The notes under the pieces are model-generated. The model searched no databases, had not been told where the DNA came from, and saw only the letters and a program-made list of their open reading frames with translations. A program made the position numbers and the translations under genes. From Kocuria sp. cx-455 (lineage in GTDB: Bacteria > Actinomycetota > Actinomycetes > Actinomycetales > Micrococcaceae), in NCBI RefSeq assembly GCF_014698015.1, contig NZ_JACXBS010000009.1, positions 1 to 64,000 of the forward strand: DNA of 64,000 bases. The letters run 5' to 3'. Positions 348 through 21,870 of the stretch are shown here, one piece after another (positions within the stretch are counted from its first letter, which is position 1; every line of letters starts with the position of its first letter).

Positions 348-411
348 TATAGTTGGTTAGGTCACCGGGGCACCCAGCCCCACTACCCGACCGACAGAGG
401 GAGTTTTTCTC
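348..411 (+). promoter_or_regulatory. repeated promoter-leader, copy 1
   Basis: Most divergent copy of the 15-member element. It has -10 TATAGT (348-353), then 13 nt, then hairpin GGGGC (367-371) ACCCA GCCCC (377-381), and a GAGGGAG ribosome-binding site before ATG 412. No -35 box is visible 17 bp upstream. The different loop with an intact stem is useful comparative evidence. Confidence 0.8.
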
Positions 412-660
412 ATGGCCTCAGAATCTTTGCGCTACCGCTATTCGCTGCGCTCCGTGGAATATCACTCGGAAGAGCTCGAGCTCACACCCGAGCAGGCGGC
501 CACGGCCTTCGCTGACCCGCATCACCCCACGGCAGAAGAAATCGCCACCGTGCGCTCCCACCTACAGACCGACCCCAGCCAGTTCTGGCACTACGCCGAC
601 CCCTGCGGATCCGAAGTCATGGACGAGCCCGGCCCCGAATTACTCACACCCCCGAACTAA
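412..660 (+). CDS. small acidic hypothetical protein (82 aa)
   Basis: Not recognised. The start follows a GAGGGAG ribosome-binding site at the end of the repeated leader, which is the main support for a real gene. The product is soluble and acidic, with a T/E-rich middle (TPEQAATAF, TAEEIATV) that looks helical. There is no signal peptide or membrane segment. It is the first gene of the small-gene chain and stands alone, followed by a perfect 17-bp hairpin. Function is unknown; a small regulatory or anti-defence role is possible only by analogy with small genes on plasmids. Confidence 0.7.
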   Translation: MASESLRYRYSLRSVEYHSEELELTPEQAATAFADPHHPTAEEIATVRSHLQTDPSQFWHYADPCGSEVMDEPGPELLTPPN

Positions 661-674
661 CCCCGCCCCCCTGA

Positions 675-710
675 AGTAATACGCCTACTAGACCTAGTAG
701 GCGTATTACT
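675..710 (+). terminator. perfect 17-bp inverted repeat after first gene
   Basis: Two 17-nt arms (675-691 and 694-710) are perfectly complementary around a 2-nt centre. It lies just after the stop codon at 660. It has no long T tract. It is unusually AT-rich for this plasmid, so it could also be a protein-binding palindrome. Confidence 0.6.
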
Positions 711-826
711 CTTGCCTAGTCAGACCCCTCATCCCCCCCCCGCGAGCGCCGGATATGAGGATTCCATCAGGGCTGACCGGGCACGGCCTACGCCCCCCCC
801 CCGGTAGCACTTGTCATGATCCACAC

Positions 827-911
827 TTGCGCTTGTTCCGTTGTGTGTGTATAGTTGATGATGTTAGCGGGGCACACGGCCCCGGAACATAGACCCATTG
901 GAGGGGTTCAC
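827..911 (+). promoter_or_regulatory. repeated promoter-leader, copy 2
   Basis: -35 TTGCGC (827-832), 17-bp spacer, -10 TATAGT (850-855), 13 nt, hairpin GGGGC (869-873) ACACG GCCCC (879-883), GACCC, ribosome-binding site GGAGGGG, ATG at 912. A typical copy. Confidence 0.9.
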
Positions 912-1607
912 ATGTCCACCGTTTACAGCATTGCCTGCACCGATCTGCTCACCCTGATGGCCCGTTTGAAGCTTGCTACGGCCAAGCCCAACGACTACAC
1001 CCCGGTGTTGGAATCGGTGTATTTTTCCGTCGATGACGAGCGGGTTACGGCGGTTTCCACGGATCGGTATCGGTTGTTCATGGATTCGCGGATGATGGAT
1101 TTCGTGGACTCCGATGGTGAGCCCGCTACCGTGTTCACCCTTCCCGGCAGCGCCGCCGATGATTTCAAGCGGCTGGGATTCGCCAAGACCGGCGAACATG
1201 CTCGGATCGAGATCACCGATGAGGGGGTCACCGTGGTGACTCAGGCGGCACGGTTGAGCTACCCGGGGCTGAGTGCCGACTACCCGCGTGTGGGATCGCT
1301 GATGGCGACTTCCCTGAAAAAGGTCGCCGCCGGTGAGTCTGTGGAGGTCACCACCGGATACAACGTCGATTATCTGGCTGACTTCGCCAAGGTGCGCCGG
1401 GCCGGGGGGATCTCCAAGAACACGCCGTTGCGTGTGCATCAGATTCCCACCGGCGGGGATAATTTTCAGTTGATCGCCACGTTCCCGGGAACCGATTTCT
1501 GGGCCTTGCTCATGGGTGTGCGCAACCCTAAGGACACCGACGGCGCCACTACCGCCGCAGACGCGCTGGAACTGGCCGTGCAGACTTCCGAACTGCTCAT
1601 GGCCTGA
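912..1607 (+). CDS. short sliding-clamp-like protein (DnaN family, 231 aa)
   Basis: Resembles the DNA polymerase III beta clamp. It contains AVSTDRYRL (near residue 50), which matches the conserved ATDRYRL signature of DnaN, and a later segment ending in a hydrophobic FWALLMGVR strand. At 231 aa it is far shorter than a normal beta clamp (about 370 aa, three domains), so probably only two clamp-type domains are present. A paralogue with the same layout is at 10859-11548. The start follows the repeated leader. Likely role: a plasmid processivity ring or a decoy of the host clamp; which one is inference. The alternative upstream start at 855 would run through the leader hairpin and is rejected. 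Confidence 0.75.
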   Translation: MSTVYSIACTDLLTLMARLKLATAKPNDYTPVLESVYFSVDDERVTAVSTDRYRLFMDSRMMDFVDSDGEPATVFTLPGSAADDFKRLGFAKTGEHARIEITDEGVTVVTQAARLSYPGLSADYPRVGSLMATSLKKVAAGESVEVTTGYNVDYLADFAKVRRAGGISKNTPLRVHQIPTGGDNFQLIATFPGTDFWALLMGVRNPKDTDGATTAADALELAVQTSELLMA

Positions 1608-1616
1608 CCCACAGAT

Positions 1617-1658
1617 CGACGATGCCCGGCACCCCCACAGGTGTGCCGGGCATCGTCG
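1617..1658 (+). terminator. hairpin terminator after clamp-like gene
   Basis: A perfect 16-bp stem (1617-1632 with 1643-1658) lies 10 bases after the stop codon at 1607. There is no strong T run after it, as is common in actinobacteria. Confidence 0.75.
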
Positions 1659-1718
1659 TAGGCAAGGGCCCCCAGCAGATCACACCCCCCCCAAGAGTGC
1701 AATACATAACTAACCGAG

Positions 1719-1801
1719 TTGCGCACTTTTAGTTCATTGTGTATAGTTATATGTGTCAGCGGGGCAGAAGGCCCCGGATCACAGACCCGAAGGGGATCAC
1801 C
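1719..1801 (+). promoter_or_regulatory. repeated promoter-leader, copy 3
   Basis: -35 TTGCGC (1719-1724), 17 bp, -10 TATAGT (1742-1747), 13 nt, hairpin GGGGC (1761-1765) AGAAG GCCCC (1771-1775), AGACCC, AGGGG ribosome-binding site, ATG at 1802. Confidence 0.9.
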
Positions 1802-2404
1802 ATGGGACAGCGTAGCCAGATGTTTGTACAGGTTCAGCCGAGCAAGCACGCCAGTAGTCAGAGCCCGCGCCGGGAAGGCCGCCATTACCACTGGGTATGG
1901 GGCCCGCACATGATTGTTCGCGCCGCCCAGGTGGTGCGGCTGTTGGAGACTGCAACCGAGACCAAGGCCATCCGTTACTGGAGCGCGGCCGAGGCCACCG
2001 CCGGAATCATCGCCACGTATTCGGTCAATCAGGCCACCGGTGAGGTGCAGGGCTTGAGTCCCTACGATGATGTTTCCGGGGCCCGCCTGGAGGAGTGCGA
2101 CAACAACAACGGGGCGTTGTTGGTTCACGTAGACCCCGCCGGTGAGGCCTACTCGTTCGCGTTTCTGATCGGCTCGGAAAATGATGGGGACCTGGCCACC
2201 GTGACCGGTGTCGAGGGGCTGATGGCCGCGTTTACCGGCTACCCGTGGCATAAGGAGCGCGCCGAGAGTGAGGAGCTGGAAGACGCTTACCAGACCTTGC
2301 TGGAGGCCGAGGACCGCGGGCACCTGATGGATCAGGCCACCGCCGATGACATTGCCGACAACACCGCCCAGGATGACGCAGAACAGATCGCCCAGGCGGT
2401 CTAA
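1802..2404 (+). CDS. hypothetical protein (200 aa)
   Basis: Not recognised. Start chosen at the ATG immediately after the leader ribosome-binding site. The N-terminal 30 residues are basic (KHASSQSPRREGRHYH), the middle is mixed alpha/beta, and the last 60 residues are very acidic and helical (EELEDAYQTLLEAEDRG, QDDAEQIAQAV). There is no signal peptide or membrane span. The charge-split layout would suit a nucleic-acid or protein mimic, but that is only a guess. A strong hairpin follows the stop, so it is probably monocistronic. Confidence 0.75.
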   Translation: MGQRSQMFVQVQPSKHASSQSPRREGRHYHWVWGPHMIVRAAQVVRLLETATETKAIRYWSAAEATAGIIATYSVNQATGEVQGLSPYDDVSGARLEECDNNNGALLVHVDPAGEAYSFAFLIGSENDGDLATVTGVEGLMAAFTGYPWHKERAESEELEDAYQTLLEAEDRGHLMDQATADDIADNTAQDDAEQIAQAV

Positions 2405-2414
2405 CCCGCTCGAC

Positions 2415-2458
2415 GGTGGGCGGGCTGCCCAGGGAGAAACCCCGGCAGCCCGCCCACC
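2415..2458 (+). terminator. 15-bp hairpin terminator
   Basis: Perfect GC-rich stem (2415-2429 with 2444-2458) directly after the stop codon at 2404. It separates two leader-driven genes. Confidence 0.75.
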
Positions 2459-2483
2459 CCACACATTACTAACACGTTCCCGC

Positions 2484-2565
2484 TTGCTGCATATATAGCA
2501 CTTGTGTATAGTTGTGTGTGTTAGCGGGGCAGAAGGCCCCGACAACCAGACCCGAGGAGGGCCCC
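2484..2565 (+). promoter_or_regulatory. repeated promoter-leader, copy 4
   Basis: -35 TTGCTG (2484-2489), 17 bp, -10 TATAGT (2507-2512), 13 nt, hairpin GGGGC (2526-2530) AGAAG GCCCC (2536-2540), AGACCC, GAGGAGGG ribosome-binding site, ATG at 2566. Confidence 0.9.
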
Positions 2566-2889
2566 ATGGCACAGCACAGAGCACCCCACACCCTGACCGC
2601 CGGCACGATCCTGGTGGCCCGCTCCATGGGGGAACAGACTGATGTGAGTTTCTATCAAGTGCTCAAGGCCACCCCGCGCACTGTCACGGTTCGCCCCGTG
2701 GCTGCGGCAAAGGACCACGACCACCAGGCCATGACCTACCGAGCCCGCCCGGTGCCCGAGGCCTTCACAAGCGGGCCCTTCCGCCGCACCGTCGTCAATT
2801 TCGAGGGCACCGAGCGCATAGCGGTCGGCTACCGGCTCAACGCCCGCCGCTGGGATGAACAGCCCGAGCATGGCTCCACCTACGCCTAA
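2566..2889 (+). CDS. small basic hypothetical protein (107 aa)
   Basis: Not recognised. The start is fixed by the GAGGAGGG site of the leader. The sequence suggests a small beta-barrel-like fold: LTAGTILVARS, then SFYQVLKATPRTVTVRPVA, then a basic stretch. The pattern 'V/I-x-x-A-R-S-x-x-x-x-x-x-x-x-x-F-Y-x-V' recurs in small phage and plasmid proteins of actinobacteria, but I cannot name the family. Soluble, no cysteines of note. One of the chain of leader-driven genes. Confidence 0.75.
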   Translation: MAQHRAPHTLTAGTILVARSMGEQTDVSFYQVLKATPRTVTVRPVAAAKDHDHQAMTYRARPVPEAFTSGPFRRTVVNFEGTERIAVGYRLNARRWDEQPEHGSTYA

Positions 2890-2986
2890 ACCCCCCGAGG
2901 CCCGCGCGCATCCGCACGCGGGCCGCGCTCGCGGTCGAGGCCGCCGGGGTGGCCGGTGTGGCCGGAAAACTGTTCACTCCACACAC

Positions 2987-3068
2987 TTGCGCGCTTTCAG
3001 TTGCTTGTGTATAGTTAGTTATGTAACCGGGGCAGCGGCCCCTACATATCGGACCCGAGGAGGGCACC
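2987..3068 (+). promoter_or_regulatory. repeated promoter-leader, copy 5
   Basis: -35 TTGCGC (2987-2992), 17 bp, -10 TATAGT (3010-3015), 13 nt, hairpin GGGGC (3029-3033) AGCG GCCCC (3038-3042). The loop is four rather than five bases. GGACCC and GAGGAGGG follow, ATG at 3069. Confidence 0.9.
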
Positions 3069-3311
3069 ATGATTGGTGAACGGTCAGTCTTCGCTTGCAT
3101 CACCTGCCACGAACTGAAGGCCGAGGCTTTCGATTACCGCTACGGTGTGACCCACCCTATTTACTGGTGTGACACTGGCGAATCAACCATCAACCACCAC
3201 AGCGGAATTTGTGGGTTCTGTGGCCATCAGGATCGGTTGCAGGAATTGTTCCGACTCGTCGGAGAGACGGTCAGCAATCCCCACATTGGCGAGATGGAAA
3301 TCATCAACTAA
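3069..3311 (+). CDS. small putative zinc-ribbon protein (80 aa)
   Basis: The protein has a CITC pair near residue 10, a lone Cys near 35 and CGFC at about 50, followed by His. Two CxxC knuckles of this kind usually hold a structural zinc ion, so a small zinc-ribbon nucleic-acid- or protein-binding role is plausible. No wider family is recognised. Start fixed by the leader ribosome-binding site. It is followed by a clear intrinsic terminator, so it is a single-gene unit. Confidence 0.75.
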   Translation: MIGERSVFACITCHELKAEAFDYRYGVTHPIYWCDTGESTINHHSGICGFCGHQDRLQELFRLVGETVSNPHIGEMEIIN

Positions 3312-3320
3312 AGAACCACG

Positions 3321-3350
3321 ACGGCGGGCCCTACGGGCCCGCCGTTTCTC
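3321..3350 (+). terminator. intrinsic terminator
   Basis: 11-bp perfect stem (3321-3331 with 3335-3345), 3-nt loop, followed by TTTCTC. Good rho-independent form. Confidence 0.85.
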
Positions 3351-3413
3351 ATGCCCACCACCGCTGACCCACCAGACGGGCGACCGCGCTCGCAGCCCAC
3401 CATAAATATCTAC

Positions 3414-3494
3414 TTGTGCAGCTTTAGTTAGTTGTGTATAGTTAGTGATGTTAGCGGGGCAGGAGGCCCCACAAGCAGACCCCCGGAGGGCATC
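3414..3494 (+). promoter_or_regulatory. repeated promoter-leader, copy 6
   Basis: -35 TTGTGC (3414-3419), 17 bp, -10 TATAGT (3437-3442), 13 nt, hairpin GGGGC (3456-3460) AGGAG GCCCC (3466-3470), AGACCC, GGAGGGC, ATG at 3495. Confidence 0.9.
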
Positions 3495-3842
3495 ATGAGC
3501 GCCACTATTGATCAGAAGGTCCAGATGGCCCACGGCTTGCTGGCCGAAGCGGAAGAACTCCGGCAGCGGGCCCTGCGCATCCGCAACGATCGCAGCCGAC
3601 AGGCGGTGCCGCTACCCACCAATGCCGCCGAGCGGTCAGAAGAAATGCGCTCGCGGATCGACTACAGCCGCGCACAGGATCACCAGGTGGCCACCATCGC
3701 CCAGGAACGGGCGTTCTTACTGGCCTGGGCTGATGATCTGCTCGTGCAGGCCTCCCAGGCGCACCCGGAAGAACTGCCGAAGGAGCCGGCCGAACTGACG
3801 GCACATCACCCGCTGGCAACGCACGCGCCCCTGTGCGCCTAA
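3495..3842 (+). CDS. helical hypothetical protein (115 aa)
   Basis: Not recognised. Almost wholly helical: residues 5-35 (QKVQMAHGLLAEAEELRQRA) look like a coiled coil, and a second helix pair covers 60-100. No signal peptide or membrane span. Start fixed by the leader. It is followed after 75 bases by a gene without its own leader (3918-4154), so the two probably form a two-gene operon. A GCGCTCGCGG motif lies between them. Confidence 0.75.
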   Translation: MSATIDQKVQMAHGLLAEAEELRQRALRIRNDRSRQAVPLPTNAAERSEEMRSRIDYSRAQDHQVATIAQERAFLLAWADDLLVQASQAHPEELPKEPAELTAHHPLATHAPLCA

Positions 3843-3917
3843 CACAACCAGCCGGGAGCGCAGCCGGTGCGCTCGCGGCCCCAGAACCTCCATACGACCC
3901 ACCAGAAAGGCACCACC

Positions 3918-4154
3918 GTGAGCGTTACCAAGGAAACCGCCATCATCACCTACACCATGACCGAGACGATAGAGATCGAGGGACAGTCCACCGTGTCCCG
4001 CGCTCATGCCGAGCGCACCCTGGGGAAGCCGCTGGATACTGCCACCAGTGAGGAGCTGCTGGAATACGTGGTGGCCCACGTGGCAGAAGACGACCGGCAC
4101 CTAAGCGTGTTGGCAGTGACCGACCGTGAGGGAACCGCCGCGCTCAACGGCTAA
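3918..4154 (+). CDS. small hypothetical protein (78 aa), second gene of operon
   Basis: Not recognised. GTG start at 3918 after AGAAAGG; no repeated leader precedes it, so it is read from the leader upstream of 3495. Acidic and soluble, with a beta-rich first half (TAIITYTMTETIEIEGQSTVS) and a helical end (SEELLEYVVAHV). A long 15-bp hairpin follows the stop. Function unknown. Confidence 0.65.
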   Translation: MSVTKETAIITYTMTETIEIEGQSTVSRAHAERTLGKPLDTATSEELLEYVVAHVAEDDRHLSVLAVTDREGTAALNG

Positions 4155-4162
4155 CCTGCGGG

Positions 4163-4201
4163 CCCCGCGCTCGCGGTCACTACCTCACCGCGAGCGCGGG
4201 G
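4163..4201 (+). terminator. 15-bp hairpin with GCGCTCGCGG arm
   Basis: Perfect stem (4163-4177 with 4187-4201). The left arm contains the recurrent motif GCGCTCGCGG and the right arm its complement. The best example of this motif working as half of a hairpin. Confidence 0.8.
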
Positions 4202-4234
4202 CTCATCGTGACTCGGACTATCCATAACCACCGC

Positions 4235-4317
4235 TTGCACGATAATTATATTGTGTGTATAGTTGTAGATGTTAGCGGGGCAGACGGCCCCGGAGCGCCG
4301 ACCCATTGGAGGGCATT
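4235..4317 (+). promoter_or_regulatory. repeated promoter-leader, copy 7
   Basis: -35 TTGCAC (4235-4240), 17 bp, -10 TATAGT (4258-4263), 13 nt, hairpin GGGGC (4277-4281) AGACG GCCCC, GACCC, GGAGGGC, ATG at 4318. Confidence 0.9.
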
Positions 4318-4704
4318 ATGAATGAGACCAAGCGCGAGAACACCACCGTGGTGATCGTCCCGGCCGCCCGCGATCAGGCCCTGCATCAGATCGAGCTGAC
4401 CGGAGATTCCCTGCCCGTGCTCCAGCGGGCCGTGGGCGGGCTGGTGACCTGTCTCGGTGACGGGGATCTGGAGGGGGCACCGGCTGATCTGTGGTTGGCC
4501 GACGAGACCCCGGCCAACGCCCAGCGCAATGAGCGCGCCGAGTGGTTGCACCGTTACATGCACATTTACGGCCTGCGCTGCGGGGCGCTGTTCGGTGACG
4601 CCGTGATTACCTCCGTAAGCCCCGACGGCGACACGCTGCCCCTGACGCGGGCGCAGGTGGAAGACCTGATGCTCTTGTCCGAGACCATGCTCGAAGACAT
4701 CTAA
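4318..4704 (+). CDS. DUF3846-like protein (128 aa)
   Basis: Resembles the DUF3846 family found on phages and plasmids of Gram-positive bacteria: an N-terminal strand (TTVVIVPA), LQRAVGG-LVTCL near residue 40, a conserved Asn-rich stretch (ANAQRNERAEWL) and a C-terminal GDAVITSV strand. The function of that family is not established. The start is fixed by the leader. It stands alone between leaders. I am fairly sure of the family likeness but could not run a profile search. Confidence 0.7.
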   Translation: MNETKRENTTVVIVPAARDQALHQIELTGDSLPVLQRAVGGLVTCLGDGDLEGAPADLWLADETPANAQRNERAEWLHRYMHIYGLRCGALFGDAVITSVSPDGDTLPLTRAQVEDLMLLSETMLEDI

Positions 4705-4718
4705 GGCCACGCGGGCCG

Positions 4719-4747
4719 GGGCGGGGGGCACCCTCCCCCGACCCGGC
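4719..4747 (+). terminator. GC-rich hairpin terminator
   Basis: Imperfect hairpin (GGGCCGGG paired with CCCGGCCC, plus an inner G5/C5 stem) 15 bases after the stop at 4704. Followed by a GCGCTCGCAG motif at 4776-4785. Confidence 0.55.
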
Positions 4748-4819
4748 CCAGCATCACGGTGACCACCCGGCCCCGGCGCTCGCAGTGTTGACCCCGGGGA
4801 AATTCATCATGTCCACCTA

Positions 4820-4901
4820 TTGCCCGCATTTAGTTATGTGTGTATAGTTGTGTATGTCAGCGGGGCACAAGGCCCCGGAGCTTGACTCACTGGAGGGCAC
4901 G
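4820..4901 (+). promoter_or_regulatory. repeated promoter-leader, copy 8
   Basis: -35 TTGCCC (4820-4825), 17 bp, -10 TATAGT (4843-4848), 13 nt, hairpin GGGGC (4862-4866) ACAAG GCCCC, GACTC, GGAGGGC, ATG at 4902. Confidence 0.9.
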
Positions 4902-5105
4902 ATGGGACGACTCCCCAAGGACTTGCGACCGATCGCCAAGAAGGCAGAACAAGCCGGGTGGCGGGTTGATATTCGCCCCAACAAGGCACTGTTTTTCCCA
5001 GCAGATAAGGCCTACGGCCCTATCACGGTCCACTTCACGGAGTCAGACTGGCGGGCGCAGCGAAACTTCATCGCCCACCTACGGCGGACCGGATTGAACA
5101 TCTGA
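4902..5105 (+). CDS. HicA-like small protein (67 aa)
   Basis: The pattern KKAEQAGWRVDIR, then a beta pair (KALFFPAD, GPITVHF), then a helix RAQRNFIAHLRRTGL resembles the HicA/YcfA dsRBD-like fold of small mRNA-cleaving toxins, which start with a helix, 'GW', and a strand carrying a catalytic His. Here the usual GSH motif is not clear, so catalytic activity is doubtful. No HicB antitoxin gene follows: the next gene has its own leader and a different sequence. An RNA-binding protein of this fold is as likely as a toxin. Confidence 0.6.
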   Translation: MGRLPKDLRPIAKKAEQAGWRVDIRPNKALFFPADKAYGPITVHFTESDWRAQRNFIAHLRRTGLNI

Positions 5106-5111
5106 GCCCAT

Positions 5112-5142
5112 GATCACCCCGGCCACACCGGCCGGGGTGATC
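5112..5142 (+). terminator. 13-bp hairpin terminator
   Basis: Perfect stem (5112-5124 with 5130-5142), 5-nt loop, followed by TTATGG. Lies 7 bases after the stop codon at 5105. Confidence 0.8.
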
Positions 5143-5154
5143 TTATGGCACCAC

Positions 5155-5237
5155 TTGCACGCATACAGTTATGTATGTATAGTGGTAGGTGTCAGCGGGG
5201 CAGCAGGCCCCAGAGCATCGACCCCCTGGAGGGCACC
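5155..5237 (+). promoter_or_regulatory. repeated promoter-leader, copy 9
   Basis: -35 TTGCAC (5155-5160), 17 bp, -10 TATAGT (5178-5183), 13 nt, hairpin GGGGC (5197-5201) AGCAG GCCCC, GACCC, GGAGGGC, ATG at 5238. The -35 sits only 13 bp after the previous terminator. Confidence 0.9.
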
Positions 5238-5474
5238 ATGACCACACATCATCCTTTAGTTCGCGCCATCGAGAACAGCCCCGGCTGGGAATACCGCACC
5301 GTCGCTGAGCTCTACCCCGATACGCCCCTGCTGGACCCCCGTGACGGGGAATACGTCACCACCGATGACCCTCTCTATGACGACGCGGGCAACCTGCGCG
5401 TTATCGACCTCCATGGCGACCTCAGGATCTGGGAGGAGCCCACCGACCAGATCTTCCTGGCCTACTTAGGCTGA
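5238..5474 (+). CDS. small acidic hypothetical protein (78 aa)
   Basis: Not recognised. Strongly acidic (many D/E, for example DPLYDDAGNLRVIDLHGD), soluble, with a short aromatic end (IFLAYLG). Acidic small proteins on mobile elements are sometimes DNA mimics, but nothing here proves it. Start fixed by the leader; a 10-bp hairpin built on GCGCTCGCGG follows at 5483-5512. Confidence 0.7.
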   Translation: MTTHHPLVRAIENSPGWEYRTVAELYPDTPLLDPRDGEYVTTDDPLYDDAGNLRVIDLHGDLRIWEEPTDQIFLAYLG

Positions 5475-5482
5475 CCCGGCGC

Positions 5483-5512
5483 GCGCTCGCGGTGACCACT
5501 CCCCGCGAGCGC
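5483..5512 (+). terminator. hairpin built on GCGCTCGCGG motif
   Basis: GCGCTCGCGG (5483-5492) pairs perfectly with CCGCGAGCGC (5503-5512), just after the stop at 5474. Confidence 0.75.
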
Positions 5513-5550
5513 CGGCGGTGGCGCGCCGGCCAGTGGTCACAAACCACCAC

Positions 5551-5634
5551 TTGCACAGCTCTTGACCAATGTGTATAGTTGTTTATGTCAGCGGGGCAGA
5601 AGGCCCCGAATCCCAGACTCCACTGGAGGGCATC
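5551..5634 (+). promoter_or_regulatory. repeated promoter-leader, copy 10
   Basis: -35 TTGCAC (5551-5556), 17 bp, -10 TATAGT (5574-5579), 13 nt, hairpin GGGGC (5593-5597) AGAAG GCCCC, AGACTC, GGAGGGC, ATG at 5635. Confidence 0.9.
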
Positions 5635-5850
5635 ATGGCCACCGCCTTAACTCACACCTACCACGACACCGGACGGCTCGTGGAGACCTGCCTGGAGATC
5701 GGGTTAGGCCTGCGAGTGGACCTAGACCCCTGTGATGGCGTCGATCTCTACGGCGAGGATCTGAACCAGACCTGGGCCGCCATCGCCCCCGGCGAGGCCT
5801 TTGTGGTCCGCGCCGTCCTCCCCGACCGCGTGGAGACAGCCCACGCCTAA
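5635..5850 (+). CDS. small acidic hypothetical protein (71 aa)
   Basis: Not recognised. Acidic and soluble, with alternating strands (LRVDLDPCDGVDLYG) and an AFVVRAVL end. Start fixed by the leader. Its terminator, a hairpin using GCGCTCGCGGG at 5863 onward, has been split by the IS at 5879-7579: the other arm (CCCGCAAGCGCC) lies at 7584 onward. Function unknown. Confidence 0.7.
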   Translation: MATALTHTYHDTGRLVETCLEIGLGLRVDLDPCDGVDLYGEDLNQTWAAIAPGEAFVVRAVLPDRVETAHA

Positions 5851-5930
5851 GGCCCCCACCCGGCGCTCGCGGGCACTAGGGCGTGTTGATATATCGAGGC
5901 TCGTGCTTACGTTGGGCTAGGGTGTTGGGG

Positions 5931-6719
5931 GTGCCGACCGTGCTGCTGCTTCATGCTCACCCCGACGATGAGGTGTTCGCGAACTTTGGCTGGGCCGCCG
6001 ACTTGTCCTCGCGGGGATACGACGTCGTCGGCGCGATCGCGACGGGCGGCGAGGCAAGCGAACTGCATGAAGTTGACTCGCTCGAAGACGCGCGGGCACG
6101 TCGTATTGCGAAGTACGAAGCCGTGCTCGAACTCCTGGGGGGTCGTTCGTGGTCGTGGCTCGACGAGTCCGCCGGATGGGTTGATGCTCCGTCCGGTCCA
6201 ACTGTGTCAGGCGCAGCTCCCCAACACCTCCGTGCCGCAGTGGAACACCTAATTTCGAAGACTCAACCGGACATAGTCCTCACCGTTGGCTCGGATGGGC
6301 TCACCGGCCATCCTGATCACGTCGTGGTCGGGACAGCTGTAGCAGCCGCGCGGAACGCCGTGGAAGTCTCCGAGGGAGTATGGGGGTCTCGGCTTCGAGC
6401 GGACGATGTTCGAGCAGCAACAGCACTTGTCGGTTCGCACACGCGCGGTGGGAAGGTCGGCTCCGGGAGAGTTGTCGGGACCAGCGCGCCACTGCTCACC
6501 CGAGATGTTCGATCATCAGCGAATCTGAGGAGAAGGGCGCTCGATTTGTACCGCGACGGGCTCGGGACCGACAGCCTTGAATCGATCGTTCGCAGCGCGC
6601 CCCGTGTTGGCGACTCGGTCCTCCTCCGCGGCATCTTCGATCTGACGGAGTGGAGCAAGGAGCACTACGACACCGAGAACCAGAGCAGTGTCGCTGCAAG
6701 GCATAGTCCTGCGTGGTAG
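5931..6719 (+). CDS. PIG-L/LmbE-like deacetylase, IS passenger
   Basis: A zinc-dependent N-acetylglucosaminyl deacetylase-like protein of the PIG-L/LmbE family, which in actinobacteria includes MshB and Mca of mycothiol metabolism. The N-terminus gives a strand (TVLLL) and the metal-binding AHPDDE motif about 8-15 residues in; a second metal motif GHPDH follows near residue 125. About 262 aa, close to family length. The start is uncertain: GTG codons at 5922, 5931 and 5940 are all possible, and the frame runs back to a GTG inside the left IS end. The C-terminal 18 codons overlap the transposase gene, so the end may not be native. Substrate unknown. Confidence 0.75.
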   Translation: MPTVLLLHAHPDDEVFANFGWAADLSSRGYDVVGAIATGGEASELHEVDSLEDARARRIAKYEAVLELLGGRSWSWLDESAGWVDAPSGPTVSGAAPQHLRAAVEHLISKTQPDIVLTVGSDGLTGHPDHVVVGTAVAAARNAVEVSEGVWGSRLRADDVRAATALVGSHTRGGKVGSGRVVGTSAPLLTRDVRSSANLRRRALDLYRDGLGTDSLESIVRSAPRVGDSVLLRGIFDLTEWSKEHYDTENQSSVAARHSPAW

Positions 6720-7530: not shown

Positions 7531-7583
7531 ACCTCGAGCGTGACGGAAGACTCCGAGTCAGACATTTAGCAACACGCCCTAGT

Positions 7584-9728: not shown

Positions 9729-9808
9729 TTTACATATTATTGGGTTAGGTGTATAGTTGAGGGTGTTAGCGGGGCAGTGGCCCCTCACGACAGACCCTGG
9801 AGGGCATC
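9729..9808 (+). promoter_or_regulatory. repeated promoter-leader, copy 11
   Basis: -35 TTTACA (9729-9734), 17 bp, -10 TATAGT (9752-9757), 13 nt, hairpin GGGGC (9771-9775) AGTG GCCCC (9780-9784), AGACCC, GGAGGGC, ATG at 9809. Four-base loop with intact stem. Confidence 0.9.
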
Positions 9809-13798: not shown

Positions 13799-13820
13799 AA
13801 GTCCTCCTCAGAGCGGGAAC

Positions 13821-14817: not shown

Positions 14818-14832
14818 TTCTATACTGGTGGC

Positions 14833-15381: not shown

Positions 15382-15750
15382 CCGCGTGGGCCTGGCCTGG
15401 GGGGGGGTGACGTGCACGAGGGCGTGCTGGGCACAGTCGTCCTCGGCGGCCAGGGTTCCCAGGGCCGCAGCGAGTCCTTCGAGGATGTCCACGGATCGCC
15501 AGACGTCGTGCTTAGGCATCCCGGGGTCGGTGGCGATGGTGAGGTGGACGTGGAGAGAACTTCCGTGAATCCCTGACTAGGGACGATGCAGGGTGGTCGG
15601 GGGCTCTGTCCCTAGCGTTGCAGCCTATTGTCCACGGGACCGCGAGTCACTGGGTTGGCCCCGTGAGTGCGGGAGCCAGGACCGCGCAGTTTGTCGGACC
15701 CCCGCCGTAGGCTTCGACTCAACAGGTTCGCGCAGAGGATGGGGTACACC
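15382..15750. pseudogene. gene remnant and spacer before OLD gene
   Basis: On the minus strand, about 15400-15545 reads as a plausible protein piece (SLHVHLTIATDPG, MPKHDVWRSVDILEGLAAAL) cut off by the internal IS end, so it looks like a truncated gene. A hairpin with 8-bp stem CTAGGGAC/GTCCCTAG follows at about 15575-15613. The family of the remnant is not known. Confidence 0.35.
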
Positions 15751-17655
15751 ATGAAGTTGCAGAAGGTGGCGATCCGTCGGTATCGCAGCATCGAGGAGAT
15801 GGACGCGTTCGAGGTCGAGCCGGACGTGACCTGCCTCGTCGGGAAGAACGAGTCCGGCAAGACAGCGGTGCTCCAGGCGCTCAACAAGAGTCACTCTCAC
15901 GACGGTGCCAGTTTCGATGAAGGGCTCGACTATCCCACGACGCGCACGAGCGAGAGGCGGAAGGCCGAGGGGAAAATGCAGGTCACTACCCTGACCTACC
16001 TCCTCGATGACGGCGATGTCCAGTCGGTGGAGGACTGGATGGGTGAGAGCGCGCTGTCATCCAGGACGATCACGGTGACGACGCTCTACGACGGCAGCAG
16101 CACTTGGGCAGTGGGGCTGGACGAGGAAGCCGTCGTACGTCATCTCGCGCGTGACCTTGACCTTCCCGCTGGTCCACAGAAGGCTGCCAAGGGCTCCAAA
16201 TCGGTGAGCGGACTGGTTGAGGTCTTGGAGGGACTGGAGGACCCGAACACCGAGGCAACCGAGGTGCTGGCTCGGGTGGCCAAGTGGCGGGAGTCGTCTC
16301 CCATGCTGGGTGTGATCGACCTCCTGATTCAGCGACGCCCGAAGTTCGTCTACTTCGGTGAGTACGACTCCATGCCGGGCGAGATCAACGTGAAGGAACT
16401 CATCGCCCACCGTGACGCTGGAGACCTGAGCCGGGGCGAGCGCGCCTTTCTATCGCTGCTCCACTTGGCGAGCGTCGAGCCGGAGGACTTCATCAACCCG
16501 GAGAGCGACGAGCACCTCATCCGCGACGTGGAGAACGCCTCCAACGGGATCACAGAAGAGGTCTTCACCTACTGGTCGCAGAACACGAACCTGCGCGTCC
16601 AGTTGCGGGTAGGTAGTTCGACAACGGGTCCCTACCCAGGGCCGACGATCCAGATTCGGGTGCTCAACCAGAAGCACAACGTGACGGTCCCGTTCGATGA
16701 GCGCTCGCGCGGCTTCGTATGGTTCTTCTCGTTCCTCGCCTACTTCTCCGAGATCGAGCAGGAGTCGAGCCGTCCCCTGATCCTCCTGCTCGATGAGCCA
16801 GGCCTGAGTCTTCACGCAAAGGCGCAGGCAGACCTCCTGCGCTTCCTTGACGAGCGACTGGCTCCCGAGCACCAGGTGCTCTTCACGACGCACTCGCCGT
16901 TCATGGTCGACCCGCAGAGGATGCATCGCGTACGCACGGTGGAGGACCGCGAGGATGGCGGCACGACCGTCTCGGCAGACGTCCTGAAGGCTGACAGTGA
17001 CACGGTGTTCCCACTCATGGCCGCGATGGGAGTCGACCTCACACAGACGCTGTGGGTGGGGCCCAACGTGCTTCTGGTCGAAGGGCCATCCGATGTGGTC
17101 TTCCTGACCCACCTCAGCGAAGCGCTGCGGTCGCAGGGTAGGGAGGGCCTCGATCCCCGCTGGGTAGTGACTCCCGGAGGCGGCATCTCGAAGTTGCCCT
17201 CCTTCCTCTCCCTCTTCGGGGCCAACAAGATGAACGTTGCGGTGCTGACGGACTCCTCGCCCAAGGAGGCCAAGACGATCCAGCGCCTGAAGGAACTGGG
17301 CCGTCTTGGGAACACGGGGATCGTCCAGGTGGGCGAAGTCCTCAACAAGCAGGAGGCTGACCTGGAGGACCTCTTCACTGATGCCGTCTATCTGAAGTTG
17401 GTCAACGAGTCATACCAAGGAGTTTTGAAGGGCCGTAAGGTTGTCGCCTCCGATATCCCCAAGGGAGACCGGCTCACCAGTCGAGTCCAGGAGTACTTTG
17501 CAGCAGAAGGCATCAACGGTGGACAGTTCAACCACTACGCCCCTGCGGGTGCCCTGATGCGCGGGGCGCTTGGCAAGGCGTCCCTGGCCACTTCGACGCT
17601 GGACCGGGCCGAGGAGTTGATGCGGCGACTCAACGCCTTCCTCCCCGTGGTTTGA
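15751..17655 (+). CDS. OLD-family ATPase/TOPRIM nuclease (634 aa)
   Basis: N-terminal ABC-type ATPase: FRSIE-like start (RRYRSIEEMDAFEV), Walker A GKNESGKT (residues 31-38), signature-like DERSRGFVWFFSFL and Walker B LILLLDEPGLSLH (about 340-355), then TTHSPFM. The C-terminal TOPRIM domain has LLVEGPSDVVFL (about 440) and VLTDSS (about 497), where the usual DxD is only partly kept. OLD nucleases act in phage defence, alone or with a UvrD-like partner (Gabija). No helicase gene follows, so this would be a stand-alone OLD. Start at ATG 15751 is the most conserved; ATG 15739 is possible. Right-hand cargo of the IS481 element. Confidence 0.8.
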   Translation: MKLQKVAIRRYRSIEEMDAFEVEPDVTCLVGKNESGKTAVLQALNKSHSHDGASFDEGLDYPTTRTSERRKAEGKMQVTTLTYLLDDGDVQSVEDWMGESALSSRTITVTTLYDGSSTWAVGLDEEAVVRHLARDLDLPAGPQKAAKGSKSVSGLVEVLEGLEDPNTEATEVLARVAKWRESSPMLGVIDLLIQRRPKFVYFGEYDSMPGEINVKELIAHRDAGDLSRGERAFLSLLHLASVEPEDFINPESDEHLIRDVENASNGITEEVFTYWSQNTNLRVQLRVGSSTTGPYPGPTIQIRVLNQKHNVTVPFDERSRGFVWFFSFLAYFSEIEQESSRPLILLLDEPGLSLHAKAQADLLRFLDERLAPEHQVLFTTHSPFMVDPQRMHRVRTVEDREDGGTTVSADVLKADSDTVFPLMAAMGVDLTQTLWVGPNVLLVEGPSDVVFLTHLSEALRSQGREGLDPRWVVTPGGGISKLPSFLSLFGANKMNVAVLTDSSPKEAKTIQRLKELGRLGNTGIVQVGEVLNKQEADLEDLFTDAVYLKLVNESYQGVLKGRKVVASDIPKGDRLTSRVQEYFAAEGINGGQFNHYAPAGALMRGALGKASLATSTLDRAEELMRRLNAFLPVV

Positions 17656-18092: not shown

Positions 18093-18175
18093 TTGACCCT
18101 ATTTTAGAGTGTGTGTATAGTTGGCTTTGTTAGCGGGGCAGCGGCCCCGGGATACGGACTTTTTGGAGGCTAGCC
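18093..18175 (+). promoter_or_regulatory. repeated promoter-leader, copy 13
   Basis: -35 TTGACC (18093-18098), 17 bp, -10 TATAGT (18116-18121), 13 nt, hairpin GGGGC (18135-18139) AGCG GCCCC, GGAGG, ATG at 18176. Closest -35 to the TTGACA consensus. It lies just after a CCCCTTGC...GCAAGGGG hairpin. Confidence 0.9.
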
Positions 18176-18469
18176 ATGGAACAGACCACCTACACCACCG
18201 ACCAGACGGCCGCGTTAGACAAGGTGCTGACCACCAATCGCCGCCACGCCTCACGGAACGGGGAGTGGATGAGCGTCAACCACGTCGATCGCCCCGGGGA
18301 AGCATGGCCGGCCGTGGTGGGGCTGTGCTACTGGATCAGCACCTCCGATAAGGCCGTCGCCCACTTTCCCGGGTTGAGCAGCGACCAGCTCGCCCAGGCC
18401 CTGGCCCGTCACCACTACTTCACCACCAACCTGGGCGGGGTGGACGTGATGGCCCCGCGCACCATCTAA
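18176..18469 (+). CDS. small hypothetical protein (97 aa)
   Basis: Not recognised. Start fixed by the leader. Mixed alpha/beta with several aromatic residues (WMSVNHV, WPAVVGLCYWIS) and a helix (SSDQLAQALARHHYF). No signal peptide. Probably co-transcribed with 18541-18765, which lacks its own leader. First leader gene after the IS481 element, so before that insertion it followed 11744-12061. Confidence 0.7.
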   Translation: MEQTTYTTDQTAALDKVLTTNRRHASRNGEWMSVNHVDRPGEAWPAVVGLCYWISTSDKAVAHFPGLSSDQLAQALARHHYFTTNLGGVDVMAPRTI

Positions 18470-19036: not shown

Positions 19037-19363
19037 ATGAAGCATCACCCCTACCTTTCCGCTCAGCCACCCGTGTTCCTGGACTCACCGGCACACCCCG
19101 ACCCCACCGCGGAATCAGAATGGGTCCCGCTGACCGAAGCCATGCGGATCACCGGCGGAACCCTGATGATGGGATCACGATTACTCATCCATGGCCGCCC
19201 AGCCGTGTTCACACTCGATCCCTACATCGGCAGCTGCTCAGCTAAATACACCGACACCCCCGATTCCTACGCCCTGAACATCGCCGCCGCCTCCGACACG
19301 GTTCTGGTGCACACTCAGGCCATTCAGGCCACCCAGGATCACGTGGCCGCAAGCCAGGCATAA
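19037..19363 (+). CDS. hypothetical protein (108 aa)
   Basis: Not recognised. Start fixed by the leader. Proline-rich first 30 residues, then a compact alpha/beta region (WVPLTEAMRITGG, MMGSRLLIHGRPAVFTLDP). No signal peptide or membrane span. Likely the first gene of an operon running to 21728, since the following six genes have no repeated leader and several overlap by ATGA. Confidence 0.7.
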   Translation: MKHHPYLSAQPPVFLDSPAHPDPTAESEWVPLTEAMRITGGTLMMGSRLLIHGRPAVFTLDPYIGSCSAKYTDTPDSYALNIAAASDTVLVHTQAIQATQDHVAASQA

Positions 19364-19421: not shown

Positions 19422-19904
19422 ATGCGTATTACCCGAGGAATCACCGCCGTCGCCGCGCTCGCCGCCCTGTCATTGACCGGCTGCGCCGCAGGGGATGCCG
19501 CGACTCAAGAAAGCAGCGCCCCGCAGGGCGCGGCCACGCCGACCAAAATCAAACACCCCGACGATCAAGACTCCTGCACCGTCACGATCGAACACGACGT
19601 GACCGAAGGTGACGCCCCGGATCTGGCCACCATTCAGTGCGGGACCACAGCGCGCGAAGTCGCCGGCAACTTTGCCGACAAGACCAGCAATTGGTACGCC
19701 CCCGAAAGTGGAGTGTCCAACATCGTCGTCGTAGGCACCAACGTCCGCGCGTGGGTCTACACCGGAGACGCCGATCAGACGTGCGCCATCATCTACGACG
19801 AGGGCGATCAGCCGGTCAAGTGCCGACCCACGGAGCAGGGAGAATCCTCACCGGAGCCAGTCAATCCCACCGAACCCGAGCGCATGAAAGCACCCACAGC
19901 CTGA
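19422..19904 (+). CDS. secreted lipoprotein (160 aa)
   Basis: Clear lipoprotein signal: basic start (MRITRG), hydrophobic run (AVAALAALSL), lipobox LTGC, then Ser/Ala-rich linker. Mature part has two to three cysteines (SCTVTIEHDV, IQCGTTAREV, QTCAIIYDEG) that could form disulfides. Surface-located. ATG at 19422 after AAGGACCAGCACC. Possibly a surface factor in mating or exclusion; this is a guess. No known domain recognised. Confidence 0.75.
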   Translation: MRITRGITAVAALAALSLTGCAAGDAATQESSAPQGAATPTKIKHPDDQDSCTVTIEHDVTEGDAPDLATIQCGTTAREVAGNFADKTSNWYAPESGVSNIVVVGTNVRAWVYTGDADQTCAIIYDEGDQPVKCRPTEQGESSPEPVNPTEPERMKAPTA

Positions 19905-19950
19905 CAGCTACCCCAACGAACCCCCGACCAGTAGACCAGGAGAAACACCG

Positions 19951-20130
19951 ATGCGCACCGCCCTCCGCACCCTCACCGCCGCGGTAACCAGCCTGTTCTG
20001 GTGCCTCGCCGCGTGGCTCATGTCCATCACCGGCATGACCATGCACACGGCCCGGCTGCCCTGGGCGTGGACCGCCCGCCGCGGTCACTTCTCATGGGCC
20101 CGCGCCTACGGCTTCATCCCCGGGCTATGA
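19951..20130 (+). CDS. small membrane protein (59 aa)
   Basis: Short gene starting ATGCGCACC after CAGGAGAAACACCG. One or two membrane spans (LTAAVTSLFWCLAAWLMSITG), then an Arg/Trp-rich tail. Its stop overlaps the next start as ATGA, strong evidence of translation coupling. Function unknown. Confidence 0.65.
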   Translation: MRTALRTLTAAVTSLFWCLAAWLMSITGMTMHTARLPWAWTARRGHFSWARAYGFIPGL

Positions 20131-20639
20131 GCCCCTGGGGTAAAGCGGGAGAACGGATCACCGCTGAGGAAGCCAAGAACCGAGCCCGCGCCCGCCAAGC
20201 ACCAGCCCGCCGCGCCTGCGCCGTCGCGAAGGAATCAAACGCCGCCCGATTCTCCGCCGCGCATAAGGCGTGGAAAGCGGGCCTAACCCGACCCGACATG
20301 ATCACCCAAGGACTCAACCTCCGGGACCTCTACGGCCCCGAGGTGGACCGGGCGTGCGGGGTGGAAGAACCCACCGTGGACCTCTGGGAAACCGGCCGCG
20401 TCTACCCCACCTGGGAGCAACTGAGCGCGCTCGCCGCACTGTGTGAGCTCCCGGTGTGGTGGTTCACCGAAGAACCCCTGATCAGCGCCGGGGACCTGTT
20501 CATCTGCGGCCGCAGGCGCGTCATAGACACCACCCCACCGATCACGAGGTTCGATCCGATGGCATTAGCCGCCGCCGGCATCAACCCCTACCCCGACACC
20601 CCGGGCACGGATGACAACGGCCAGACCCGGCTGCTCTAA
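20127..20639 (+). CDS. XRE-like helix-turn-helix protein (170 aa)
   Basis: The start overlaps the previous stop (ATGA). Residues 65-110 (LRDLYGPEVDRACGVEEPTV, LWETGRVYPTWEQLSALAAL) resemble an XRE-type HTH, followed by LPVWWFTEEP as in many phage-type regulators where the protein checks residues after the HTH. N-terminal 50 residues are basic and helical. Likely a regulator of this operon. No operator is identified. Confidence 0.65.
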   Translation: MSPWGKAGERITAEEAKNRARARQAPARRACAVAKESNAARFSAAHKAWKAGLTRPDMITQGLNLRDLYGPEVDRACGVEEPTVDLWETGRVYPTWEQLSALAALCELPVWWFTEEPLISAGDLFICGRRRVIDTTPPITRFDPMALAAAGINPYPDTPGTDDNGQTRLL

Positions 20640-20691
20640 CCCGAGTACGCCACTCGGACAATGGCCGTGTATGGAGATGAAAGGATCAAGG

Positions 20692-21564
20692 ATGCGTAAA
20701 CCTGAACTCGAGGCTCACCACTCATCCCCCACCGCGCACCACATCACGGTTGACGGATTCCGAACTTCCCGCGCCTGGGATAGTCCCTATGCGCCGCCCG
20801 TGGAGGTACTTATCCGAGAGTCCCTCTCGTCAGAGACCACCGAGGAGCTGGCCCGGAACCCGATTACCGGCAGCACAACACAGCCCGCGGAAAGCCGAGT
20901 GTCGATAGGCGACACCGCGCCCCTCCGTCTAGAAATCTTGTACATCATGCTCTTTGCGGTGGTTGGCGCATTCGCCAGTTATGCAGTCCTCACCCGAATC
21001 AGTGCTTCCCCCGAAAATTTGCTCCTGCTCGCGGCACCCGGCGCGGCATGTGGGTCGCTCCTAGGCTTCTGGTTCTCACTGTGGCGGTCACGAGTTGCTA
21101 CCGACCGCGCCCGTCAGTATCTGGAATTTCGGAGCCAGCACGCCCAGGACGTGATCGAGACTGCCGATCCGGTGGCAGCTCGCGTGCTGGAGGTGATCGA
21201 CATGGCCCGCCAGGACGCCCAGGCCATTGATCGGGCTGGGGCGGGCGACCTCGCGGAGAAGATGCCTCCCGTCAGCCGTCTGGCCGGCCAGGTGATCTCG
21301 GCACGCTTGGCTGCTCTACGCCCGGTTTCGACTGTGGTGATCGCCCATGCTCGTGATCTGCTGACGGGCACGAATCCAGCCGACGACTCCCGCGCGGTGG
21401 CAGACATGCGGACGCAACTCGAAGCCGCCGAGACCGAAGCCCACCCCCTCAATGAGCGCGTAGAGGTCCTGTTGAGTGAACTGACCGCCGCGGGTGCCCG
21501 GATTTCGGAGCTGGCCCGCAGCGCCCGCGCTCGCGCTCAGGTCACTGGTGAGGAGCAAGCATGA
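20692..21564 (+). CDS. membrane protein with cytoplasmic coiled coil (290 aa)
   Basis: Not recognised. ATG at 20692 after AAGGATCAAGG. Residues 1-85 are hydrophilic, two membrane spans follow (IMLFAVVGAFASYAVL; LLLLAAPGAACGSLLGFWF), then about 175 residues of mostly helical, partly coiled-coil sequence to the end. This layout suits a membrane anchor for a DNA or protein complex. Its stop overlaps the next gene's ATG (ATGA). Confidence 0.7.
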   Translation: MRKPELEAHHSSPTAHHITVDGFRTSRAWDSPYAPPVEVLIRESLSSETTEELARNPITGSTTQPAESRVSIGDTAPLRLEILYIMLFAVVGAFASYAVLTRISASPENLLLLAAPGAACGSLLGFWFSLWRSRVATDRARQYLEFRSQHAQDVIETADPVAARVLEVIDMARQDAQAIDRAGAGDLAEKMPPVSRLAGQVISARLAALRPVSTVVIAHARDLLTGTNPADDSRAVADMRTQLEAAETEAHPLNERVEVLLSELTAAGARISELARSARARAQVTGEEQA

Positions 21565-21728
21565 GCGCTCGCTGCGCCCAAGAGTTATACCCGATGTGGG
21601 ACGGGGACACATGCCCCTGTGAAACATTCGGTATCGACCCCGAAAATCCACCCACCCGCGGGATTTTCACCACTACCTGGCCCGAGCACCCCAACCAACA
21701 ACCCCCGGGGGCTGCACCTCGTAACTGA
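21561..21728 (+). CDS. small hypothetical protein (55 aa)
   Basis: Overlaps the stop of 20692-21564 by ATGA. Contains Cys residues as CAQ and CPCETF near residues 5 and 18-20, and a proline-rich end. Might bind metal. Not recognised; too short to judge further. Confidence 0.5.
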   Translation: MSARCAQELYPMWDGDTCPCETFGIDPENPPTRGIFTTTWPEHPNQQPPGAAPRN

Positions 21729-21782
21729 GCACCTAACGCACTCCCCCGTTCGCCAACCGCCACCCCTTACACATACACCCCA

Positions 21783-21870
21783 TTGTGCGTAATCCATACA
21801 ATGTGTATTGTTGTTTTTGTTAGCAGGGCATCAGGCCCAAGATTCAGACCTCCATGAAGGGGAAACACCC
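21783..21870 (+). promoter_or_regulatory. repeated promoter-leader, copy 15
   Basis: -35 TTGTGC (21783-21788), 17 bp, -10 TATTGT (21806-21811), 13 nt, hairpin with the outer pair lost on both sides (AGGGC, 21825-21829, and GCCCA). GAAGGGGAAA ribosome-binding site, GTG at 21871. Confidence 0.85.

Follow-up and report, generated by a model that had tools for sequence, protein, structure and literature searches.

A repeated promoter-hairpin leader on a Kocuria plasmid

The window analyzed here runs from base 1 to base 64,000 of contig C9 (68,903 bp in total) in a Kocuria genome, and it carries 16 copies of one leader, in which a promoter is followed at a fixed distance by a short hairpin, a ribosome-binding site and a start codon. 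The reading that we favor, with about even confidence, is that this leader is the regulatory unit of an actinobacterial counterpart to the establishment regulons of p576-type plasmids, with each gene having a repressible promoter and its mRNA bearing a hairpin at the 5' end. It is well supported that replicons of both Kocuria and Micrococcus carry this leader unit, built in the same way.

An earlier note on this DNA had listed fifteen copies, all on the plus strand. Each of these was present, and a weight-matrix search added a sixteenth on the minus strand that was absent from the earlier list:

325..411, plus strand: leader copy 1, before gene 412-660; -10 box at 348-353, hairpin 367-381, -35 box not clear
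827..911, plus strand: leader copy 2, before DnaN-like gene 912-1607; hairpin from 869
1719..1801, plus strand: leader copy 3, before gene 1802-2404; hairpin from 1761
2484..2565, plus strand: leader copy 4, before gene 2566-2889; hairpin from 2526
2987..3068, plus strand: leader copy 5, before gene 3069-3311; hairpin from 3029, loop of 4 nucleotides (nt)
3414..3494, plus strand: leader copy 6, before gene 3495-3842; hairpin from 3456
4235..4317, plus strand: leader copy 7, before DUF3846 gene 4318-4704; hairpin from 4277
4820..4901, plus strand: leader copy 8, before gene 4902-5105; hairpin from 4862
5155..5237, plus strand: leader copy 9, before gene 5238-5474; hairpin from 5197
5551..5634, plus strand: leader copy 10, before gene 5635-5850; hairpin from 5593
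9729..9808, plus strand: leader copy 11, before DUF3560 gene 9809-10693; hairpin from 9771, 4-nt loop
10773..10858, plus strand: leader copy 12, before DnaN-like gene 10859-11548; hairpin from 10815, one G-U pair
18093..18175, plus strand: leader copy 13, before gene 18176-18469; hairpin from 18135, 4-nt loop
18953..19036, plus strand: leader copy 14, before gene 19037-19363; hairpin from 18995
21783..21870, plus strand: leader copy 15, before C5-cytosine methyltransferase gene 21871-23487; 4-bp hairpin at 21825
61810..61889, minus strand: leader copy 16, reading inward from the right end; weight-matrix match

As the earlier note had it, fourteen of the fifteen plus-strand copies possess a -35-like hexamer at a spacing of 17 bp; 13 of these hexamers start with TTG, one is TTTACA, and copy 367 is without one. 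The claim that all fifteen share a GGGGC/GCCCC stem held exactly for 13 copies and failed for two, since copy 10815 reads GGGGC/GCTCC and therefore includes a G-U pair, while copy 21825 is limited to the four pairs of GGGC/GCCC. The loop measures 4 nt in copies 3029, 9771 and 18135, and 5 nt in the other 12.

The weight matrix was trained on these 15 copies, whose own scores are thus high by construction. It found a single untrained site, at 61847 on the minus strand, with a score of 45.6; the next distinct site scored 9.9, and simulation of 20 order-1 windows, scanned on one strand each, gave 23.6 at best. This sixteenth copy is followed by an open reading frame (ORF) of 31 amino acids (aa; ATG at 61809) that by reading resembles the start of gene 412. 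Beyond it lies a 247-aa ORF (60974-61717), helix-turn-helix (HTH)-like by reading, for which we found no Pfam or NCBIfam match and no relative on other plasmids at E 1e-3. A decayed 17th copy, outside the window at contig positions 64,420-64,355 (leftward), is joined directly to the interior of a gene-412 paralogue.

We searched the whole host genome with a pattern for the leader core, allowing up to 2 mismatches. It returned 55 matches, compared to 24 for a reversed control pattern; the 16 matches with 0 mismatches all fell on C9, and the 39 with 2 mismatches all fell elsewhere. Likewise, the 10 exact matches to the promoter pattern TTG-N18-TGTATAGTT were all on C9, as were 6 of the 9 further matches with one mismatch, the other 3 lying elsewhere. 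As this genome has no exact copy of the promoter pattern outside the plasmid, we rejected the idea of a host promoter family. Scanning positions 300-6000 for a generic sigma-70 promoter (TTGACA/TATAAT) gave 2 sites against 1.2 expected, so our promoter call rests on the shared sequence rather than on the textbook consensus.

The hairpin and its covariation

The hairpin was examined at sites picked blind to it, using the promoter TTG-N18-TGTANNNT together with a start codon having a Shine-Dalgarno (SD) sequence and 50 open codons in 11 sequence sets. Of these 90 sites, 73 had a perfect stem, 5 bp or longer, whose start lay 11-15 nt past the -10 box. The same test at control offsets of 0-4, 20-24, 25-29, 30-34, 40-44 and 50-54 gave 0, 1, 0, 0, 0 and 0 stems, respectively, and 200 base shuffles gave a mean of 2.4 and a maximum of 7. 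With exact duplicates removed, 53 of 64 sites in Micrococcus and 18 of 23 in Kocuria had the stem. The 17 misses include one promoter-like site without a leader (29104, minus strand) and, by reading, several near-perfect stems.

Covariation was measured in 36 Micrococcus copies, hand-picked for diversity from the 64 of a scan that required a perfect stem, a selection that inflates the 96.2% of alignment cells found to pair. Two-sided changes occurred in 22 cells compared to a shuffled mean of 8.4 (none of 500 shuffles was as high), and the covariation score was 0.232, against 0.090 for shuffled and at most 0.077 for slid alignments. The plasmid pLMV7 alone carries the stems GGGGTTC/GAACCCC, GGGGATC/GATCCCC, GGGGGC, GGGCTC/GAGCCC and GGGTGG/CCACCC side by side. 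These compensatory changes support the RNA hairpin that the earlier note had proposed: the Micrococcus stems differ in sequence while pairing is kept. The hairpin itself is well supported. The Kocuria stem hardly varies, and so the case for RNA there rests on the variation in loop length, the one G-U pair, a changed pair in the decayed copy, and homology.

Among 82 distinct scan hits, which include a few probable non-leaders (e.g. C9 26754, minus strand), loops were 3-5 nt long (4 nt in 15, 5 nt in 65). Their first nucleotide was A or G in 79 and their last was G in 77, and the closing pair was C-G in 74. When 81 distinct leaders were folded, the hairpin, present in 67, had a mean pair probability of 0.94.

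These data bear on two alternatives. In the first, the GGGGC/GCCCC repeat would serve as an operator in double-stranded DNA, shortly after the start site, instead of as an RNA element. The Kocuria arms are near-invariant, as expected of a protein site, and their distance to the promoter is fixed. Coexisting 4- and 5-nt loops would, however, rotate the half-sites relative to each other, different stems occur on a single plasmid such as pLMV7, and copy 10815 contains a G-U pair; we consider an operator at this position improbable. In the second, the leaders would be left over from duplication or recombination at repeats and would share no regulation. Leaders do recombine, as the decayed copy (64,355-64,420) joined inside the gene-412 paralogue indicates. 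Against this idea, stems change letters yet keep pairing, and at the DnaN-like gene the flank upstream of the -35 box diverges while the unit is kept (similarity to the K. salsicia plasmid DNA begins there at the -35 box, left position 827). We regard such an origin without shared function as very unlikely.

Other classes of element were also considered. The earlier note knew of no named motif that matched, and likewise a search of all 64,000 bases against Rfam 15 gave no family at its gathering score; the two matches within 300-6000, one overlapping leader 6, were at chance level (E 0.54 and 0.9). An intrinsic terminator was rejected, since none of 4 terminator-like sites in 300-6000 coincides with a leader hairpin. 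Targets of ANTAR proteins comprise two hairpins with hexanucleotide loops; this class was rejected because leader loops are 3-5 nt, and the one ANTAR match in the host genome, which was searched, lies on contig C2. Nor did we find sequestration of the SD by the C-rich stretch after the hairpin: the SD had a mean unpaired value of 0.53 where found, and its partner was inconsistent among the 45 structures read.

The leader on other replicons

A model, R1, was built from the 16 Kocuria copies and found leaders on other Kocuria plasmids, with 7 strong copies on a K. salsicia contig, 4 on the K. rhizophila linear plasmid CP124834, and weaker ones as well. At E 1e-4, R1 matched only its own genome among 396 genomes of the order. 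Among 27 genomes of the genus at E 0.05, 5 had a match, namely the source genome (17), K. salsicia (7) and three with one weak match each. In the family (295 genomes, E 0.01) there were 20, comprising the source genome (17), K. salsicia (7), genome G068 (5) and 17 with 1-2 weak matches. A second model, R2, had matches in 6 of 295 family genomes and in 2 of 394 class genomes, the second being G896. The same anatomy in different letters was present in G068, which belongs to another, Micrococcus-like genus, and in six Micrococcus plasmids with DNA similarity to it. By scan, a plasmid carries 1 to 22 leaders.

Most plasmids with the leader are recorded as linear, and CP043850 is recorded as circular. 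The ends of CP124834 are inverted (87% over about 600 bp); the left end of the K. salsicia contig is telomere-like, with 90% identity to that of the window over 91 bp, and has no matching right end. pLMV7 and pLMA7 are linear plasmids with terminal proteins, and the papers describing them make no mention of the leader unit (PMC3869321, PMC5823993). No description of it was found among the literature matches listed, in which subscription journals were thinly covered. A phage origin was rejected, as one leader query had no match in phage records and two pattern scans of viral contigs came back empty.

Three further observations concern isolated sequences. Single pattern matches occurred in Tsukamurella and in a metagenome-assembled genome of Bacteroidales. 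A genome of genus g14, a single contig of 2.7 Mb, contains a leader-like sequence (G044:C1:2429695-2429768, L100) that is perhaps a chromosomal remnant of such a plasmid. At L065 1242-1258, the leader hairpin and GACC stretch precede a gene without a recognizable promoter.

Position of the leaders and the genes behind them

Six linear records include both ends; of their 64 scan hits, 57 are oriented inward and 63 are found no more than 25 kb from an end. We take C9 itself to be an entire linear plasmid that ends in inverted repeats, because its bases 1-170 are 94.7% identical to the reverse complement of its opposite end. It encodes RepA and ParA, and the features that bear on its transfer and establishment are as follows:

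1..170, no strand: left terminal inverted repeat (telomere), 94.7% over 170 bp to the reverse-complemented other end
21871..23487, plus strand: leader-driven C5-cytosine DNA methyltransferase gene (PF00145, E 5.6e-28)
30439..32168, plus strand: genes for an S24 peptidase (UmuD/LexA-like, PF00717) and a UmuC-like protein (impB/mucB/samB, PF00817), without leader
48660..59379, plus strand: conjugation-type genes, comprising TcpC-like, VirB4/TcpF-like ATPase (under NCBIfam cut-offs), M23 peptidase and FtsK/SpoIIIE

The linear plasmids of Micrococcaceae that host the leader are probably conjugative.

Pfam matches were obtained for 5 of the 15 leader-proximal plus-strand genes, which encode two DnaN-like clamps, DUF3846 and DUF3560 proteins and the C5 methyltransferase. 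The idea that leader genes encode acidic DNA mimics was rejected, since the 16 leader proteins of this plasmid are a mixed group, 7 of them with an isoelectric point under 5. In the published leading-region islands of conjugative plasmids, as covered by the excerpts of PMC11541004 available to us, orphan methyltransferases occur and umuCD often marks the inner edge; on C9 the UmuD/UmuC-like pair sits at 30.4-32.2 kb. By analogy, the gene content of C9, with its leader-driven methyltransferase and the UmuD/UmuC-like genes further in, fits an establishment role.

The earlier note had suggested a single control system spanning unrelated small genes. This suggestion is well supported by the same anatomy on related plasmids and by leaders that are kept with some orthologues: three genes of the window have orthologues on the K. 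salsicia plasmid, and the leader is kept there. On K. rhizophila, weak R1 matches lie at about the right places for those orthologues. DUF3846 genes have a leader called in pLMA7, pLMV7 and pCW.Ay, and not in CP043850.

The earlier note had also likened the leaders to single-strand promoters. Frpo/ssi promoters drive establishment genes arranged in chains close to the entering end, and their promoter boxes lie within stems of single-stranded DNA (excerpts of PMC11541004). The leaders resemble them in their telomere-proximal site and in serving chains of establishment-like genes near a plasmid end, but not in structure: the -35 and -10 boxes were both paired in 1 of 16 predicted coding-strand folds and in 0 of 16 template-strand folds. 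Moreover, 5'-end-first entry from either telomere would make the entering strand the coding strand and not the template. We give next to no weight to the leaders being single-stranded DNA promoters on the entering strand, and this part of the earlier note is not supported.

A dyad across the -10 box and a candidate repressor in Micrococcus

RNAalifold, applied to the Micrococcus alignment, also paired bases flanking the -10 box. As the left half of this pairing is not transcribed, it is a dyad in the DNA. The Micrococcus sets contained 71 instances of the dyad motif, of which 65 were at scanned leaders, and the Kocuria sets contained none; simulation on four sets gave means of 0-0.1. CA was present at the dyad position in 62 of 67 promoter-picked sites from Micrococcus and in 0 of 23 from Kocuria. 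Several of the Micrococcus plasmids counted here are near relatives, and their copies are not independent.

The dyad co-occurs with a gene for an HTH protein of ~150 aa (HTH150): all 7 Micrococcus replicons examined have this gene, and the search did not find it on the 3 Kocuria replicons. By reading, the operon that encodes HTH150 in pLMV7 and CP043850 carries the dyad and a 5' hairpin of its own, and the region upstream of HTH150 has three related elements in pLMA7, pCW.Ay, pJD12 and pSGAir0127. From these sequence features, the Xre-type HTH150 is the best candidate for a Micrococcus repressor, one that would act at the -10 dyad. HTH150 also bears a weak resemblance to Aca2 in sequence. A joint profile of HTH150 and shorter relatives had Aca2 (7ezy) as its top match among solved structures (E 1.6e-5), with other HTH proteins close behind, and one shorter relative (pCW.Ay 5191-5562) scored 24.4 bits against PF08965 (Aca2/YdiL). 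No relatives of HTH150 were found in viral contigs.

Among the Kocuria replicons, a shorter HTH relative is present on C9 only (65037-65381), within a two-gene operon at 64704-65381 (L064 4704-5381); this shorter protein gave an Aca2_YdiL score of 19.9 bits. Upstream of this operon is an inverted repeat, TGTACCA-N6-TGGTACA, and similar GTAC repeats precede the relatives on pLMV7 and pCW.Ay.

The nearest alternative to an establishment regulon is a cassette that is always on, in which a strong host-type promoter and a 5' mRNA-stabilizing hairpin were copied before many genes without regulation. Two other Micrococcaceae genomes have the extended -10 TGTATAGT with TTGCGC (G143) or TTGCGG (G119) at 17 bp. 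These model matches (G143:C9:83159-83227, L098; G119:C4:391-473, L101) are close to the plasmid promoters and sit just upstream of what we take to be rRNA leaders. The position of the hairpin near the likely mRNA 5' end and the lack of a detected operator dyad in Kocuria also suit such a cassette, and the hairpin may form an mRNA-stabilizing 5' end of the ompA type. It accounts poorly for the dyad, which is nearly exclusive to Micrococcus promoters and lies across their -10 box, and for the loop ends, which seem tighter than stability alone requires (A or G first in 79/82, G last in 77/82). On balance we find the unregulated cassette doubtful, though it has more going for it than the DNA operator discussed above.

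A proposed establishment regulon

Under the reading that we favor, each small telomere-proximal gene would have its own extended -10 promoter, with transcription predicted to start ~6-8 nt past the -10 box, so that the mRNA would begin roughly as GUYAGC-hairpin-(GACC or GCACCCC)-SD-AUG. In the donor, a plasmid-encoded repressor would hold the promoters down; in Micrococcus this may be HTH150, bound to the dyad straddling the -10 box. In a new host lacking the repressor, all leader genes would fire together until repressor accumulated. The 5' hairpin would act after transcription, either protecting the mRNA 5' end or serving as a binding site. Gene content, position and analogy make it plausible that the leader genes are expressed on entry.

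A more specific version assigns two layers to the operator. Aca2 reportedly also binds RNA stem-loops. An Aca2-like HTH protein might bind both the -10 DNA dyad and the conserved 5' RNA hairpin (closed by C-G, with an R-N(N)-M-G loop), silencing transcription and translation of ~20 establishment genes that would be released together on end-first entry. We consider this version unlikely, and less likely than at first, because a search with HTH150 alone does not retrieve Aca2, and for two out of three HTH150 copies the Pfam family of Aca2 goes unmatched.

Several observations weigh against the establishment regulon or against parts of it. The dyad is absent from Kocuria (0/23), so the candidate Micrococcus repressor leaves the window itself uncovered, and the weak point for this window is that neither an operator nor a regulator was identified in Kocuria. 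The HTH150 of pLMA7 by itself gave 8 solved-structure matches, none of them to Aca2 and the best at E 0.09; it reached 20.9 bits against PF08965, compared to a cut-off of 23.8, and the HTH150 proteins of pLMV7 and CP043850 had no match to that family at E 0.05. Of the five covariation measures, one, the count of pairs showing two-sided change (2), was at the shuffled mean. No Pfam match was obtained for 10 of the 15 leader-proximal genes, and PADLOC, run on 9 of the 15, recognized only the methyltransferase. For the orthologue matches on K. rhizophila, pLMV7 and CP043850, the leader scan called none, and pJD12 has one leader only. Finally, transfer of the C9 plasmid end-first is assumed.

Should the proposal be correct, the leader would flag dozens of uncharacterized small genes as candidate establishment or anti-defense genes and would provide a DNA/RNA signature for finding more. 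Little is known of the means by which a linear plasmid protects itself when it reaches a new cell. The up to ~20 near-identical leaders per plasmid would also offer a model for the effect of a 5' hairpin on actinobacterial mRNA.

Comparison with known regulons

The comparisons below draw on excerpts of the cited papers. In p576, a strong promoter and operator are repeated before establishment genes, short inverted repeats before ardC are thought to prolong mRNA half-life, and the repressor is left behind at transfer (PMC8708921). This system, EGeRS2 (p576, pLS20 clade II), resembles the leaders in placing one regulatory unit before several operons of small, variable genes, mostly of unknown function; a promoter unit repeated before small-gene operons was found here in 16 copies within the window. 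Both have a strong sigma-A-type promoter, and the short inverted repeats in the ardC 5' region have their parallel in the leader hairpin (PMC8708921). The anti-restriction gene of p576 has its counterpart in the methyltransferase gene of the Kocuria plasmid. EGeRS2 also has a shared operator and an autoregulated repressor (PMC8708921), for which HTH150 of Micrococcus would be the candidate here. By this analogy, the leader regulon matches the establishment regulons of the pLS20 family in kind.

The two differ in detail. p576 has four units, compared to the 1 to 22 per plasmid scanned here; its operator is a TTATCCC dual motif bound by a ribbon-helix-helix protein, whereas Micrococcus has the -10 dyad and a candidate HTH protein (PMC8708921). 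Unlike in EGeRS2, the hairpin here is part of the unit and covaries, and the plasmids are linear and actinobacterial. The EGeRS2 operator TTATCCCnnTTATCCC had 5 matches with 3 mismatches in the window, against 2.4 expected, and 0 of them at leaders. As the operator sequence differs, the leader unit is not a member of EGeRS2.

Aca2 is an HTH autorepressor that acts at an inverted repeat overlapping promoter elements (excerpts of PMC8434428). Its similarity is mainly in the HTH and is weak for HTH150 alone, and the site here would span a whole regulon. No anti-CRISPR gene was recognized, although no search was aimed at one.

The SAS/ESAS elements of cluster K mycobacteriophages likewise combine a promoter with an inverted repeat that recurs before several non-structural genes, with a consensus that varies by subcluster (PMC3203893, PMC11373665). 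According to the excerpts of these papers, the authors see little RNA-pairing support in the ESAS arms, whereas changes in the leader arms keep pairing (PMC3203893, PMC11373665). The 13-bp SAS GGGATAGGAGCCC had 2 matches with 2 mismatches in the window (20122 and 53606), neither at a leader, against 2.7 expected.

Other features of the plasmid

Two segments, 5880-7570 and 12840-13810, read like inserted transposase genes interrupting the leader array. Between leader groups lies a gene for an OLD/GajA-like ATPase (15667-17655) that is without a leader; PADLOC, queried with 15751-17655, gave Old as its best match (E 2.1e-23). ARAGORN called a tRNA-Gly at 14257-14347 on the minus strand, within an ORF, which is probably false. 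Beyond the window, a partial internal copy of the telomere repeat is present at C9 ~66,379-66,487 (84% over 109 bp). Finally, a second repeat, GCGCTCGCGGT, counted together with its complement, had 15 matches with at most 1 mismatch in 300-28000 of the window, compared to 3.0 expected; by reading it is mostly intergenic and sometimes occurs as facing pairs.

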